DNA of 28,564 bases. Origin: a virus. The stretch is from IMG/VR virus record IMGVR_UViG_3300020202_000466, positions 1 to 28,564 of that record, one strand, 5' to 3'. Every line of letters begins with the position of its first letter. Within the stretch, counting starts at the first letter, position 1. Shown piece after piece: positions 3,601 through 16,085 of the stretch. Both the position numbers and the translations under genes were made by a program. A model generated the notes under the pieces. It did no database searches and had not been told where the DNA came from. It saw nothing but the letters and a program-made list of their open reading frames with translations.

Positions 3601-4640
3601 CAGGACGCCTTCGCCTTCAATTGGTCGCGCCAGTCCTGCATCGTCTGCGCGTCGCCCATCTTGAGATAGAGCGCGTGGACGAGCTTCAGGTCGGCGGTGT
3701 CGTTCGGCTTGTCGTGCAGGAAGTCCCGCCGCAACGCCAGCCGCTCTTCCGTCGTGAGGTTCAGCTCGTTGGCCTTGCGGTTGATCGCCTTGGTGTAGAA
3801 AGCCCGGTCGGCTTCCTTCGGCTCGTCCAGTGGTGGCGCCGTGACCGTCTCCACCCGTCGCCCCGCCGTCGCCAGCGGCGAGACGCCGAGCGCCACGCCC
3901 TCGTACTCAAACGGCGGGTCCGCATCCACGTCGTGCGGAATGTCGCCGTCCGACTCCAGCCCGACGAGGTTCGTGTTCCGCCCGTTCGTTTCGATCGTCG
4001 GCGTCACCGCGACCTTGGCGGCGCACATCTTTTCCGCTCGCCCGGCGAGCGCCAAGTCGAACGTGGAGGCTTTCCGCCCGTCGCTGAACTCCACGTCGAA
4101 GCGTGTCCACGGCTTGCCGGTCTGCTTGCTGACACCCTTGGCGGTGTGGACGGCGGTGATCCGCAGGGCACCGGATGGCTCCGGCACTTCGGCGGGCGCG
4201 CTCACCTTGCGCTGACGGGGCTGGCCGGTCTGCGCGGCGGTCCCGTCGTCGTCGTCTTCGGACGCGACCCCGAGCAGCGCCGAGAGCGTGTAGCGCCGGG
4301 CATACGTAATTTCGCTGCCCATCTCTTGCGGCCGGTCGTGGCTCGCCAGCGGATACCGACCCGTCCGCGTCGCGCCGCTCGTGTGGATCAGCTCGGAGAC
4401 GAGGACGACGTGCCCCTCGGGCGTCACGTCCGTCAGTTGCGTGAACGCCAGCCCGTTGTCCGCCAGCGGCTTGCGTACGGCGTCGATCAGGCTGGCGAGG
4501 TCCGCGTAACGGTAGGAATACTCGCCGCCGCTCTTGAGCGGCACCTTCGCCGTCCGGTCCTTGACGACCTTCGGGAAGGCCGCCTGCGCTTTGGACAGGG
4601 CTTCCGCGAGCAGTCCGAGGTTCGATCCGTTCTCGCTCAT
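3600..4640 (-). CDS. erf: ERF-family single-strand annealing protein
   Basis: A 346-aa recombination protein. The N-terminal ERF domain (about residues 8-130) shows the family signatures YADLASLIDAVRKPLADNGL and SEITYARRYTLSALLGV. An acidic SEDDDDG stretch then closes the domain. ERF proteins form rings on single-stranded DNA and anneal complementary strands, acting in circularisation and recombinational repair of phage DNA. The C-terminal half (about 150-346) has a beta-rich TAVHTAKGV...FDVEFSDGRKASTFD part, then helices. It may be an OB-like or SSB-like extension, since no separate SSB gene is seen. ATG at 4640 sits in a TGATG overlap, which excludes the longer in-frame start at 4673. Confidence 0.9.
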   Translation of the reverse strand: MSENGSNLGLLAEALSKAQAAFPKVVKDRTAKVPLKSGGEYSYRYADLASLIDAVRKPLADNGLAFTQLTDVTPEGHVVLVSELIHTSGATRTGRYPLASHDRPQEMGSEITYARRYTLSALLGVASEDDDDGTAAQTGQPRQRKVSAPAEVPEPSGALRITAVHTAKGVSKQTGKPWTRFDVEFSDGRKASTFDLALAGRAEKMCAAKVAVTPTIETNGRNTNLVGLESDGDIPHDVDADPPFEYEGVALGVSPLATAGRRVETVTAPPLDEPKEADRAFYTKAINRKANELNLTTEERLALRRDFLHDKPNDTADLKLVHALYLKMGDAQTMQDWRDQLKAKAS

Positions 4641-4834
4641 CACACCCTCTCTTTCGTCATGCCCTGCATCCACGTCAGGGACGCGTACTCGTCGGCATCG
4701 GCCTGACTCAGCGACACCCGCAGGCGCAGGGCTTCGCTTCTGAGCGACGCCTTTTTCTTTTCCAGCGCGTGCTGCGTCGCGCTGATCCGCTCCAGCGTCC
4801 GTTCGATGGCGTGGAGCTTCGCGGCGGGGGTCAT
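4640..4834 (-). CDS. Coiled-coil protein, 64 aa
   Basis: ATG at 4834 (ATGA). It is highly charged and helical (LERISATQHALEKKKASLRS, then EALRLRVSLSQADADEY). This is a short two-helix coiled coil preceding the annealing protein. Function unknown; a recombination accessory role is only inferred from its place. Confidence 0.6.
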   Translation of the reverse strand: MTPAAKLHAIERTLERISATQHALEKKKASLRSEALRLRVSLSQADADEYASLTWMQGMTKERV

Positions 4835-5262
4835 CGGGCGTCGCTCCGCGACGTTTCGCCTTCGGCGAGCGCGAGCGCCGCGCGCATCATCGGCACCACC
4901 ACGCTGTCGTCGGCATTCCCGAGCCCGGCCGCCTCGAACAATTCGACGTAGCGCGGGAGCACTTCGCGCAGCGCCGACACGAGCGCCTCGTGCGCGTTCA
5001 CCGCGCGGACGATCAGCTCGGCATCAGCGGGTCTGATGTAGATGTGGTGATTCGGCTCGTAGTACGGCCCGTGCGCGGTCGTCACGACCGGGACCGGCCC
5101 CTTCAACTGCCCGTGATCCCACACCGTCTCAATGCCGATCAGTTCCGGCGGGGGCTCGGCGCGTAAGCCGCGTTCCAGCCCGAGCGGTGACAACTTCAAC
5201 CGCTCACGGACCACGCGCCACGGCCGCGGCGTCGCTTCACCCGGAGCCGCAGGCGACGCCAT
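4831..5262 (-). CDS. Conserved phage protein, 143 aa, paralogue 1
   Basis: ATG at 5262 (TGATG). The architecture is a GEATPRPWRV opening, a variable beta-rich middle, then ADAELIVRAVNAHEALVSAL and a helical tail. This layout is widespread in small phage proteins of unknown function. The 121-aa gene at 6030-6395 has the same opening and the same ADAELIVRAVN core, so they are paralogues. The C-terminal SRSDAR is written by a junction hairpin repeat. Confidence 0.7.
   Translation of the reverse strand: MASPAAPGEATPRPWRVVRERLKLSPLGLERGLRAEPPPELIGIETVWDHGQLKGPVPVVTTAHGPYYEPNHHIYIRPADAELIVRAVNAHEALVSALREVLPRYVELFEAAGLGNADDSVVVPMMRAALALAEGETSRSDAR
4850..4869. repeat. 20-bp hairpin repeat, copy 1
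   Basis: GACGTTTCGCCTTCGGCGAG, containing a TCGCC-TTC-GGCGA stem, is identical to 9370-9389. Here it is coding (the EGETS end of the 143-aa protein); the other copy is intergenic. Confidence 0.65.
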
Positions 5263-5345
5263 CAGAAGCTCACCAACGCGAGCAAGAGGTAGAGCTGCGC
5301 CACGACGCCCAGCGCCACGGCAGCGGACAGGAGCGCGTCACGCAT
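5262..5345 (-). CDS. Single-TM micropeptide, 27 aa
   Basis: ATG at 5345, overlapping the 94-aa gene's stop; it ends in a TGATG overlap. Nearly the whole peptide is hydrophobic (LLSAAVALGVVAQLYLLLAL), one membrane helix with an acidic/basic start MRD. It is too short for automatic callers but fits the overlap chain exactly. It may modulate a host membrane protein. Confidence 0.55.
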   Translation of the reverse strand: MRDALLSAAVALGVVAQLYLLLALVSF

Positions 5346-5622
5346 CAGGGGCGCTCCCTTCGGGAGCGGTCTCCGCGCGCACTTGCGCGACGGCATCCTC
5401 AACCGCGAGCCGCCAATGCAGCGGTTCGGGTTTGAGGTCTCCGTTCTTCACGGGGCGCCGGCCGCGGTCGCACTCCCCGCACCTCCACGTAAAGGTCGGG
5501 TCGTACCACGCGTCGTTCGTGCACCACAGCCAGTGCCGGGTCTCACGGCGACAGTGGAGACACCGGATGTCTTTCGCCTCCGCGAGGCCAAACGAGCGCG
5601 GGCGGCAGATGATTACGGTCAT
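5338..5622 (-). CDS. Zinc-ribbon protein, 94 aa
   Basis: ATG at 5622 overlaps the preceding stop (ATGA). Two knuckles, CLHC (21-24) and CGEC (48-51), with a further Cys at 34, make a probable zinc ribbon with aromatic residues between them. An acidic helical C-terminus follows. Possible roles are binding to nucleic acid or RNA polymerase. Its last codons hold a GCTCC-CTTCG-GGAGC hairpin. Confidence 0.6.
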   Translation of the reverse strand: MTVIICRPRSFGLAEAKDIRCLHCRRETRHWLWCTNDAWYDPTFTWRCGECDRGRRPVKNGDLKPEPLHWRLAVEDAVAQVRAETAPEGSAPDA

Positions 5623-5798
5623 GGTTTGGCCTTTTCGCCCGCAGGGCGCCCGGGACATTCCTTCGTCCACTGGCTCCCCGGGTAGATGCGGTCGCACCGC
5701 GGGCACCAGAACCACGACTCGGGCAGTTCCCCGAGCGGGTGCCGGAACGAGTACGCGTGCGTCATCCGCTCGTCCTCGATCCACACCGCGTCGTCCAT
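5619..5798 (-). CDS. Small zinc-knuckle protein, 59 aa
   Basis: ATG at 5798 in a TGATG overlap. It contains WFWCPRCDRIYPG and a later C48 (KECPG). The motif CPRCxRxYPGxxW is typical of short phage zinc knuckles. Function unknown. Confidence 0.55.
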   Translation of the reverse strand: MDDAVWIEDERMTHAYSFRHPLGELPESWFWCPRCDRIYPGSQWTKECPGRPAGEKAKP

Positions 5799-12371: not shown

Positions 12372-12665
12372 CTAGGACGGGATACGGAAGACGGCGGGTT
12401 GCTTGACGAGGCTGAGGTAGTACAGAAAGTCGCGGTAGCCGTTGATCGCGAGCCGCAGCGGCAGCCCGACCTGCTCGTCACAGAACGGGCAGACGAAGCT
12501 GCGCGACTCCGATTTCGGGACGACGCGAAACCGGTCCACCTGCACCTCGTTGCTGAGGTCGATGACGATTTCGGCCCGGCACTTGTCGTTGTCGCAGACG
12601 AACGACACGGCCTTGATCTCGTCGTGCTTGACCCGCCGCTCGGTGATCTCAGTCACGGCCTCCAC
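12372..12665 (-). CDS. Zinc-finger hypothetical protein, 97 aa
   Basis: GTG at 12665, with a second GTG at 12656. Two knuckles, CDNDKC (about 24-29) and CPFC (about 59-62), with beta strands between (AEIVIDLSNEVQVDRFRVV), suggest a four-Cys zinc domain. The C-terminus is hydrophobic/aromatic (GYRDFLYYLSLVKQP). It is the last solid gene of the late operon. Confidence 0.65.
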   Translation of the reverse strand: MEAVTEITERRVKHDEIKAVSFVCDNDKCRAEIVIDLSNEVQVDRFRVVPKSESRSFVCPFCDEQVGLPLRLAINGYRDFLYYLSLVKQPAVFRIPS

Positions 12666-13699: not shown

Positions 13700-13854
13700 C
13701 AGAGGGCGTCCACGATGGCGCTCGCGTTCGGGTGTTCTTCCCAATACGCCACGAGCGCCGTTATCACGGCGTCGACCGCCTTGGCGTCGAGCCCCGTCCG
13801 TTCCGCGACGATCATGAGCATCTGGCCGTACACCCGGTCCTCGGGATCCGTCAT
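13699..13854 (-). CDS. Small helical protein, 51 aa
   Basis: ATG at 13854 (ATGA after the phosphoesterase). TDPEDRVYGQMLMIVAERTG, then DAKAVDAVITALVAYWEEH: two or three helices, acidic. No family recognised. Confidence 0.55.
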   Translation of the reverse strand: MTDPEDRVYGQMLMIVAERTGLDAKAVDAVITALVAYWEEHPNASAIVDAL

Positions 13855-14738
13855 ATCTCCACCGAGATGTCCGGCGCCCACGTGTTGCCCTTGCCGGGCT
13901 TGCTCCGTCCGGTGCAGTCCATCCGCGGCGTAATCCGAATCAGCGGCGCCCCGAGCGTGGCCGGGCGCATCATCCCCTGCTCGACGTACCCGCCCATCGG
14001 CACGTTGCCCTGCTTGGACTGGTGCATCCATCCGCGGGAGAATCCTCCGGTGTTCACGAGATAGACCCGCTTGTGAATCAGGCCCGGCCCCCCGTGGCCC
14101 TTCCAGCGCGCCATGACCCGCTCGATCGGCGCGACGGGAGACTTCGTGGTGTGGCCCATCAGGTAGATGTCGGCCGAGGGAAACGAGGCCGCCATGTCCT
14201 CGATCTTCCCGAGCGGCCCGCCGGCTTTCTGGCCCCCGCCCATCCCGTGATGCGCCCACAGCGTCACCGGCATCCGCGCGCCCGCGACGAGGAACTGCAA
14301 CCGGATGTAGGCGCTGGTCCCGAGGAACGGCGCATTGAGCAACTGACACAGCCGTTGATCGGTCGTCTCCCCGGTCTTCATCAGCGCGTAGTGGTGGCCG
14401 TGGAGCAGGCCGAGCCACCGCCCTTTCGTCGGCTTCAGGTACAGCTCGAAGAGTTCCAGCACGAGGTCGAGCGCCTTGTCGTCGATGACGTCCTCGGCGG
14501 TGTCGTACAGAGCGGCCGATCGAAGACGTTGCCGGTTGGACGGGCTGGCGAAGTCGATGTAGTCGCCGAGGCCGACGAACCACGCGCCGAGTTCCATGCA
14601 GCGGTCGATGTGACGCTTCAGGAGGTCTTTCGCCGTCGCCCCACGTGGCCCCGCCCACTGAATGTCGCCGACGGGTGCGATGACGACGGGCGCGTGATCC
14701 CCCTGCTTGCGCTTGATGTCGAAGGACGCAAGCTCCAC
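13851..14738 (-). CDS. Calcineurin-like metallophosphoesterase, 295 aa
   Basis: The dimetal motifs occur in order: PVGDIQ (D25), GLGDYID (D59), LLHGHHY (113-116, the GNH block), WAHHGMGGG (H163-H164) and LMGHTT (H196). The usual first motif is DxH; here Q27 replaces His, so metal site 1 may be altered. The family hydrolyses phosphomono- or diesters, including nucleic acids and cyclic nucleotides. Substrate is unknown. GTG at 14738 directly follows a TAG. It lies inside the lysis cassette, which is unusual. Confidence 0.8.
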   Translation of the reverse strand: MELASFDIKRKQGDHAPVVIAPVGDIQWAGPRGATAKDLLKRHIDRCMELGAWFVGLGDYIDFASPSNRQRLRSAALYDTAEDVIDDKALDLVLELFELYLKPTKGRWLGLLHGHHYALMKTGETTDQRLCQLLNAPFLGTSAYIRLQFLVAGARMPVTLWAHHGMGGGQKAGGPLGKIEDMAASFPSADIYLMGHTTKSPVAPIERVMARWKGHGGPGLIHKRVYLVNTGGFSRGWMHQSKQGNVPMGGYVEQGMMRPATLGAPLIRITPRMDCTGRSKPGKGNTWAPDISVEI

Positions 14739-14876
14739 CTACTTCTGCTTTTTCTTGTGCCGGCGGCAATGGCAGTAATCCGGCTCGCCCTGGTGGATGC
14801 AGCGATCGTCGGTCGTGTCGCCCTCGGCCATCGTGTTGAGGTCGTTCGGCAGTTGCGTCGGTGGACGTGTCGCCAT
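14739..14876 (-). CDS. Small Cys/His basic protein, 45 aa
   Basis: ATG at 14876 with a strong GGAGG site seven bases upstream, rare in this genome. The C-terminal half reads DRCIHQGEPDYCHCRRHKKK: three Cys and three His in a short span, a probable zinc knuckle with a basic tail. Fourth member of a run of Cys-rich microproteins. Confidence 0.65.
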   Translation of the reverse strand: MATRPPTQLPNDLNTMAEGDTTDDRCIHQGEPDYCHCRRHKKKQK

Positions 14877-14887
14877 CTGACCCTCCG

Positions 14888-15061
14888 TTAGAATTCCGGG
14901 GCGCAGCGCACTTCGACTTCGAGACCCTTATCGCCACCGAGCCATCGCATAGACATCCGCACGCGGTCTTCCGGGCACCCCGCCGTGACGGCGGCCTGCT
15001 TGAGCAGCTTGGTCGCTTCCTGAATGTTGTCGTTGATCGGCAGCGTGGCCGTGATGGTCAC
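14888..15061 (-). CDS. Hypothetical protein, 57 aa
   Basis: TITATLPINDNIQEATKLLK, then a helix and a final strand GGDKGLEVEVRCAPEF: beta-alpha-beta, no family. GTG 15061 is preferred (six bases after the upstream stop); TTG 15088 would give 66 aa with a hydrophobic start. Confidence 0.55.
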   Translation of the reverse strand: MTITATLPINDNIQEATKLLKQAAVTAGCPEDRVRMSMRWLGGDKGLEVEVRCAPEF

Positions 15062-15066
15062 GAGGA

Positions 15067-15162
15067 TCAGCGGGTACAGTGGGCGCAACGGCCCGTCTCA
15101 CATTTCGTGCAGAGAATCCCCCGCCGGCACCCGCACGTAAGACAGCGCGCCCGGAGCGTCAA
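15067..15162 (-). CDS. 31-aa Cys-rich microprotein
   Basis: TTG at 15162 overlaps the previous stop as TTGA. Seven Cys in 31 residues (CLTCGC, then CTKC and CAHC), enough for a zinc ribbon or two-metal cluster. Too short for automatic callers; the Cys density and overlap argue that it is real. Confidence 0.6.
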   Translation of the reverse strand: MTLRARCLTCGCRRGILCTKCETGRCAHCTR

Positions 15163-15359
15163 AACATCCCGTCCGGGGTATGGATGACGTCTTCGGCGCG
15201 CTCGGCTGCCGTCAGGCGCGGCGGGATCTTTCCCCGGTGGAACAGGTCGCACATGATGCGATTGGCGACCGCCCAATCGTCGCCGTACACCGTGTGGTGG
15301 TACGTGCAGAGATCGACGTCGCCGGGCAGCGCGCAGCCACACTGCGAACAGATGCTCAC
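15159..15359 (-). CDS. 66-aa Cys/His zinc-binding protein
   Basis: GTG at 15359 (GTGA). CSQCGC (4-9), C18, H21-H22, then GDDWAVANRIMCDLFHRGKI with a further Cys and His. It looks like one treble-clef-type zinc site followed by a helix. An upstream ATG at 15389 would lengthen it, but the GTGA overlap is favoured. Confidence 0.65.
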   Translation of the reverse strand: MSICSQCGCALPGDVDLCTYHHTVYGDDWAVANRIMCDLFHRGKIPPRLTAAERAEDVIHTPDGMF

Positions 15360-15457
15360 CGCCGGTCCTTCCACGAACAGTTCGTGCATTGCCAGCAGGC
15401 CAGAGGACGGGCGTAGGCCAGCGTGTCCTCGCCGCAGTTCGGGCAGCGGCGGGTCAC
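15356..15457 (-). CDS. 33-aa zinc-ribbon microprotein
   Basis: GTG at 15457 overlaps the lysozyme stop (GTGA) and its stop overlaps the next GTG. TRRCPNCGEDTLAY, then CWQCTNCSWK: CPNC and CTNC knuckles as in a minimal zinc ribbon, plus C24. Role unknown. Confidence 0.65.
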   Translation of the reverse strand: MTRRCPNCGEDTLAYARPLACWQCTNCSWKDRR

Positions 15458-15864
15458 TGCCAGATCCCGGTCTGCATCTGGCGCGCGAGACGCGCGGCGC
15501 GCTCACCCACCTGTCCAGCCCACTGCGAATCCATCATCTCGTCGGCGGCGCGGTCGTACTGCCCTGCCTCCACCGCCGCGAGCATGTTCCGGAACCCGAG
15601 CAGGCCGCGAACCCCGAGGTTGAACGCCATGTTGACGAGGACGGCGCGACGCGCTTCGTCCAGCCGCAGGGACCACGGCAGATTCGCGATGACCGCCGCC
15701 GAGTATTCGAGGATGTCGGCGTCGAGCAGCATGTCGGCCTCGTGCTGGCTGATCCCCTTGTCGCGGAGGTTCCGCCCGACGCCGATCGTCTCGATGCCGC
15801 GGCTGTCCTTGTACACGCGGAGCTTGCAGCCCTCGTCGCGAATCAGTTGCTCACGGAGCGTCAT
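15454..15864 (-). CDS. Endolysin, T4-type lysozyme (GH24)
   Basis: A 136-aa muramidase that cleaves the MurNAc-GlcNAc bond of peptidoglycan. The catalytic triad has the same numbers as T4 lysozyme: Glu11 (RDEG), Asp20 (YKD), Thr26 (ETIGVG). The C-terminal lobe has DEARRAVLVNMAFNLGV and RAARLARQMQTGIW, also like T4. There is no signal peptide or SAR segment at the N-terminus, so it needs a holin. ATG at 15864 overlaps the upstream TM gene (ATGA), which is a likely holin or lysis partner. Confidence 0.93.
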   Translation of the reverse strand: MTLREQLIRDEGCKLRVYKDSRGIETIGVGRNLRDKGISQHEADMLLDADILEYSAAVIANLPWSLRLDEARRAVLVNMAFNLGVRGLLGFRNMLAAVEAGQYDRAADEMMDSQWAGQVGERAARLARQMQTGIWQ

Positions 15865-16085
15865 CGCCGCGGCCCGAGGAAGTGATTGCGGAGGTCGCGG
15901 ACGTCCTGCTGGATCTCTTTCACGGCGTCCTTGTCGGCCTTCGCGTCCACCGCCCGCCCAAGGGCCTCCACGCTCGTACGATCCGCTTTCGCCCCCGCGA
16001 GGTACAGAAACCCGCCGCCGAACAACGTCAGCAGGAAACTCACCAGCAGGATCAGCGGCACGCGGATCGCGGGACGGTCGCTCAT
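15861..16085 (-). CDS. Single-TM protein with helical tail, 74 aa
   Basis: A short basic N-terminus, a membrane helix at about 8-29 (RVPLILLVSFLLTLFGGGFL), then a charged helical tail (AVDAKADKDAVKEIQQDVRD). N-in topology is expected. Next to the lysozyme, it could be a holin, an antiholin or an inner-membrane spanin-like protein. The palindrome at 16088-16100 lies just upstream of its ATG. Confidence 0.6.
   Translation of the reverse strand: MSDRPAIRVPLILLVSFLLTLFGGGFLYLAGAKADRTSVEALGRAVDAKADKDAVKEIQQDVRDLRNHFLGPRR

Follow-up and report, generated by a model that had tools for sequence, protein, structure and literature searches.

The Ogr/Delta proteins of P2/P4 phages are small phage zinc-finger activators of late genes, and the TraR/DksA-like small proteins are zinc proteins as well. 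Members of the latter group are encoded by phages and plasmids, e.g., Orf73 of lambda (reviewed in PMC11323111). On the cellular side, C(P)XCG zinc-finger micro-proteins such as HVO_2753 and HVO_0758 were described in Haloferax volcanii (PMC11241148, PMC10716476, PMC6562870). Zinc was bound by only 9 of the 14 purified Haloferax C(P)XCG microproteins, and therefore metal binding of microproteins cannot be assumed (PMC11241148). The locus considered here lies in the window, i.e., the whole analyzed stretch of 28,564 bases (virus record IMGVR_UViG_3300020202_000466, 67.7% G+C), whose gene content includes an integrase, an Erf-like annealing protein, a DNA methyltransferase, and structural genes. 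The window probably represents a temperate phage of Rokubacteria (Methylomirabilota), the host being assigned from gene kinship. No prophage or spacer match to the window was obtained in a DNA search of 95 genomes of this phylum; at 1e-30, the phylum yielded nothing for the window integrase, in a search that was run without a positive control and is hence uninformative.

Table 1. Predicted genes between the holin-like p74 and the metallophosphoesterase-like protein in the window.
Feature	Length (aa)	Coordinates	Strand	Characteristics
p74	74	15861..16085	-	N-terminal hydrophobic stretch; directly upstream of lysozyme; from the ORF list
GH24 phage lysozyme (endolysin)	136	15454..15864	-	PF00959, 8e-16; phrog_7 endolysin, 6.5e-23
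p33	33	15356..15457	-	5 Cys, zinc-ribbon-like; GTGA overlap with lysozyme stop
p66a	66	15159..15359	-	5 Cys; GTGA overlap with p33; Rokubacteria/phage family
p31	31	15067..15162	-	7 Cys; TTGA overlap with p66a
p66b	66	14888..15088	-	TTG start, 2 Cys, hydrophobic N-terminus; between p31 and p45, overlaps p31 end
p45	45	14739..14876	-	3 Cys, His, basic tail; GGAGG ribosome-binding site; GGAGGGTCAG upstream
Metallophosphoesterase-like protein	295	13851..14738	-	phrog_7339, 6.8e-8; directly after p45; downstream end of microprotein stretch

The microprotein genes occupy a late-gene stretch of the minus strand in the order lysozyme, p33, p66a, p31, p66b, p45, and phosphoesterase, and the lysozyme/p33, p33/p66a, and p66a/p31 junctions are 4-nt overlaps. 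All four Cys-rich ORFs (33, 66, 31, and 45 aa) that a sequence-only reading had placed after the lysozyme are present, together with their GTGA/GTGA/TTGA overlaps and the GGAGG site; its estimate of about 20 Cys agrees with the total of 20 across p33, p66a, p31, and p45. Its description of a chain of four is nonetheless incomplete, as the fifth ORF, p66b, was overlooked. Inspection of the p33, p66a, p31, and p45 sequences revealed neither a membrane stretch nor a lipobox. Profile searches with p74 yielded no convincing family match, and this protein is called holin-like from its position and shape. A comparable Cys-rich cluster (three ORFs of 25-70 aa with at least 5 Cys and at least 7% Cys within 720 nt) was observed in none of 500 simulated 28.5-kb strands generated by a first-order Markov model.

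Stronger evidence that these ORFs are genes is provided by conservation. The viral contig L082, which carries a relative of the phosphoesterase that is 87% identical to that of the window, keeps the window order between the gene in the endolysin position and the phosphoesterase, namely p66a, a 24-aa hydrophobic ORF, p31, p66b, and a p45-like ORF. The hydrophobic ORF (L082:3542-3616), absent from the window, has a TTG start that overlaps the p66a stop. The gene in the endolysin position of L082 encodes a DUF5675 protein (PF18925, 4e-34) unrelated to lysozyme, and a 96-aa protein with a shape like that of p74 is found in the same place. Between the window and L082, p66a has 55% identity and retains four of its five Cys, p31 retains all seven Cys, and p66b is 69% identical; p45 shows 28% identity with one aligned Cys and a dS that is not estimable, and p33 has no counterpart in L082. 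The dN/dS ratios for this pair (Nei-Gojobori) are 0.41 for p66a, 0.28 for p31, 0.23 for p66b, and 0.10 for the phosphoesterase, these figures being rough since dS is high (near saturation for p31). As gene order, Cys or sequence conservation, and dN/dS below 1 coincide, p66a, p31, and p66b are, on comparative grounds, real genes. The same probably applies to p45, and p33 is supported as a gene by its overlaps and zinc-ribbon pattern. The frameshifts, Cys loss, or lack of codon-level conservation by which the sequence-only reading was to be judged did not emerge for p66a and p31. Three further contigs (L083-L085) have the phosphoesterase in common with the window and lack the microproteins; no viral relative of p66b was detected besides L082, and a DNA search of the phage collection gave no match.

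The p66a family is defined here as proteins of about 66 aa with C4-x2-C7-G, C18-x2-H21, W29, N33, C37, and R42; the window protein displays all of these features. In the alignment of 37 sequences, C4, C7, H21, W29, N33, C37, and R42 are invariant and C18 is conserved in 36. A scan of 84,980 species revealed 16 close genome relatives with up to 70% identity, nearly all of them in Rokubacteria/Methylomirabilota metagenome-assembled genomes (MAGs); one ortholog (L097) is filed under a Sungiibacteriota MAG, and MAG contigs can be mis-binned. Within the phylum, p66a is present in 20 of 95 genomes, some of which have up to six copies. Aligning the window and L082 proteins gave a query that retrieved five further viral relatives; it was needed because p66a alone found none in the viral contigs. 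For p66a and p31, tblastn in phages gave weak, chance-like matches only; run with all window ORFs and no composition correction, tblastn produced noise, and its use was restricted to the microproteins and their neighbors. At the DNA level, only the p66a part of the window matches Rokubacteria chromosomes strongly, with up to 82% identity and a best E of 8.6e-31 in 95 genomes, and the other short matches to these genomes resemble composition noise.

Host p66a orthologs are located in a conserved neighborhood (PLDc, Transgly_assoc, p66a, radical SAM/DUF4070, SDR, ABC-F), where the gene after p66a is on the opposite strand. Since this neighborhood is cellular, the chromosomal orthologs are not of prophage origin; no phage genes were observed around the Rokubacteria p66a orthologs or around three p31 copies. 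In the tree, p66a proteins of the window, L082, L086, L088, and L089 cluster with the syntenic host orthologs, apart from the paralogs, which suggests that p66a moved from host to phage, as far as a weak tree of 66-residue proteins can tell. The host orthologs are under strong purifying selection, with a median dN/dS of 0.058. The window-L082 value is much higher, so that constraint on the phage copy may be relaxed or altered. At L120:6153-8011 and L129:4670-6552, in Rokubacteria-phylum genomes, a proteasomal ATPase (Mpa/ARC) gene has its start codon overlapped by a p66a paralog; these copies belong to a paralog branch separate from that of the phage copies. On L131, a p66a paralog and a similar ATPase gene flank a DksA-type zinc-finger gene. 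The p66a gene of L088 is overlapped at its start by a 34-aa CxxC/CxxCG ORF that differs from p33. On L089 (4001-5038; IMGVR_UViG_3300027819_000008), an intein-like domain interrupts a viral p66a relative in frame before Cys37 (NRIM^C...THN^CDFFHRG; PF14890, E 8e-5, below the cut-off). Inteins would be highly unusual in host proteins of only 66 aa, and the insert hints at functional constraint on the C37 site.

The p31 family is characterized by the pattern CxxCGCxRxxLCxxCxxxRCxxC in about 27-33 aa, which the window protein displays; one of the last two Cys is missing in two relatives. Of the 95 genomes of the phylum, 6 carry members; those inspected are chromosomal ORFs of 27-33 aa with the pattern MKCxVCGCDRRMLCxRCRxGRCxxC, to which p31 of L082 is 50-76% identical. 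Three chromosomal p31 loci adjoin PlsC-like and MltG-like genes, as identified by reading the sequences by eye. In hosts, p31 and p66a are mostly unlinked, being adjacent on one contig (L147) and about 6 kb apart on another (L153). Two more viral contigs encode p31, one among structural-looking genes (L155) and one near a Ku-like gene (L156), where the p31 relative (4001-4078) is just upstream of a bacterial Ku lookalike (4819-5676; judged by sequence). Small 7-Cys ORFs (CRCECGC...ICEYCEEGKC) are located about 1.2-2.6 kb downstream of related lysozymes on L060 (5604-5795) and L031 (7034-7174); considered as p31 relatives (E 0.004), they were rejected for their different Cys pattern and not counted.

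Neither the p66a nor the p31 family is represented by a Pfam, PHROG, or NCBIfam model, PDB profile searches with both gave nothing convincing, and a PDB fold search with p66a yielded no match, its AlphaFold model being mediocre (pLDDT 73, pTM 0.37). No description of p66a/p31-type proteins, or of phages carrying them, was found in the literature. With respect to C(P)XCG motifs, two of which would mark a C(P)XCG micro-protein, p33 has one CPNCG plus CWQC/CTNC, p66a one CxxCG plus CxxH, and p31 one CxxCG plus further Cys. The CxxC pairs of p33, the conserved C4-C7-C18-H21 of p66a, and the seven conserved Cys of p31 support, at the sequence level, the zinc-ribbon-like character proposed in the sequence-only reading. 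Both p66a and p31 are probably metal-binding, with p66a predicted to fold round the metal via C4/C7/C18/H21 and p31 via its Cys cluster. The matches of p33 to the ribosomal zinc ribbons L37Ae/S27ae are weak (phmmer E about 1e-3; PF01667, 0.0024, below the cut-off); it is called zinc-ribbon-like by pattern, and neither p33 nor p45 is assigned to a family here.

In the phylum survey, the box TGGCAYGNNNTTCGC preceded all host p66a orthologs that were full-length and matched closely; it was located 12-13 nt before the start codon in all 12 orthologs inspected first and 11-15 nt before ATG across p66a orthologs and DUF6335 genes. The box was observed at loci L092-L104 (upstream of p66a), L172, L175, L185, and L188. 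The pattern with its spacing has 25 matches in the 95 genomes, compared with 3 for the reversed pattern; 14 of the 25 belong to p66a and four resemble DUF6335 genes, two of these profile-tested. GG-N10-GC is the spacing of sigma54 promoters, and the host p66a box may be a sigma54-like promoter giving a nearly leaderless mRNA. p66a and the DUF6335 genes constitute a candidate small sigma54-like host regulon. A GGCACG-like sequence is found ahead of three chromosomal p31 genes, with the strict pattern in only one of nine genomes, and a regulon shared by p31 and p66a is not claimed. In the window, no TGGCAYGNNNTTCGC-type site occurs above chance.

The location of the microproteins directly after the lysozyme, with 4-nt overlaps, would suit accessory factors that tune holin/endolysin timing, e.g., lysozyme regulators that sense metal or redox state, and the sequence-only reading had envisaged lysis-timing factors in a lysis cassette. 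This role is very unlikely in view of the comparative data: L082 retains p66a-p31-p66b-p45 beside the unrelated DUF5675 gene that replaces the lysozyme, other viral relatives have structural-looking genes around them (L155, L091) or HNH genes next to them (L089) and lie away from recognized lysis genes, and the window p66a and p31 are devoid of a membrane stretch. As linkage with the endolysin is not maintained and stand-alone genes on Rokubacteria chromosomes are the nearest relatives, a lysis function is disfavored. The p31 relative on L155 and the p66a relative on L091, both between structural-looking genes, could point to zinc-stabilized virion or head-tail accessory proteins; with the closest relatives being cellular chromosomal genes, such a structural role is the least likely of the explanations weighed here.

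If the Cys-rich ORFs were regulatory leader peptides, acting in cis to attenuate the downstream genes in response to cysteine or metal, with irrelevant products, their very small size, Cys density, and overlaps would be expected, as would the two host p66a paralogs that overlap a proteasome-type ATPase gene at its start. Several observations make this distinctly unlikely, however: the non-Cys residues W29, N33, and R42 are invariant, conserved like the Cys, dN/dS in host p66a is low, the gene after the syntenic host orthologs is on the other strand, and the in-frame intein-like domain in one viral copy is expected only for a protein-producing gene. It is also unlikely, although slightly less so, that the microproteins are neutral cargo, i.e., captured host genes decaying without a role for the phage. 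The excess of p66a dN/dS between phages (0.41) over that among hosts (0.058) is in line with decay, whereas, at a dS of around 1 or more, two phages have both retained the p66a and p31 frames and most Cys, and these genes, mostly unlinked in hosts, stand together in both phages.

Host takeover or modulation, which the sequence-only reading had offered beside lysis timing, is favored. On the whole, we consider it probable, by no great measure, that the microproteins are phage copies of host microproteins acting as host-directed late accessory factors. They would be encoded by small, mostly overlapping late accessory genes, probably translationally coupled, which probably share a late transcription unit with the lysozyme and would not be needed for lysis. 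p66a and p31 are phage counterparts of two host microprotein families whose genes are mostly apart on host chromosomes; according to this explanation, the late operon would supply them as adaptors free of host control. The adaptors would occupy or reprogramme the cytoplasmic partner served by the host versions, with RNA polymerase, a nucleic acid, or, for one paralog branch, a proteasome-type ATPase as candidates. p33 would contribute a generic zinc ribbon, and p66b and p45 would be further small accessory genes. The family assignment is well supported; as to molecular action, we infer a cytoplasmic adaptor or competitor function, along with late transcription and release from host control. 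A bolder proposal, which we hold to be doubtful, is that phages of an uncultured phylum pair mimics of two separate host microproteins, one of them from a sigma54-like regulon, and free them from host control to seize a regulatory hub of the host, e.g., RNA polymerase or a proteasome-type ATPase.

Two microprotein families common to Rokubacteria and soil phages are defined that have no Pfam, PHROGs, or NCBIfam model, gene-level host evidence is obtained for phages of a group that has no cultured members, and one promoter motif points to a small host regulon of p66a and DUF6335 genes. If it is to steer the host that phages carry p66a and p31, the target of p66a is worth steering.

Among known proteins, the ribosomal L37Ae/S27ae share a zinc-ribbon pattern with p33, which is only 33 aa long and has a Pfam match below the cut-off. 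Neither Ogr/Delta (PF04606) in Pfam searches with p33, p66a, p31, and p45 nor DksA/TraR (PF01258) in Pfam searches with the microproteins gave a match, and no hits by these names were obtained in PHROGs and NCBIfam. Elsewhere in the window (12372-12665, minus strand), a 97-aa protein has a weak Ogr/Delta match (PF04606, E 0.0012, below the cut-off). The DksA-type gene beside the host p66a paralog on L131 encodes a protein separate from p66a. Like the Haloferax C(P)XCG micro-proteins, some of which are stress-linked and whose metal binding varies, p66a and p31 are single-domain, Cys-rich proteins of less than 70 aa with chromosomal genes. The Haloferax proteins are archaeal, however, and p66a and p31 have no HVO_2753-family profile match; moreover, p66a combines CxxC and CxxH with the WAxxNRxMCDxxHRG part, and both p66a and p31 are also phage-borne. 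The likeness to the TraR/DksA-like proteins would consist in small phage proteins mimicking a host regulator and reprogramming the host; p66a and p31 look like borrowed host regulators rather than lysis machinery.
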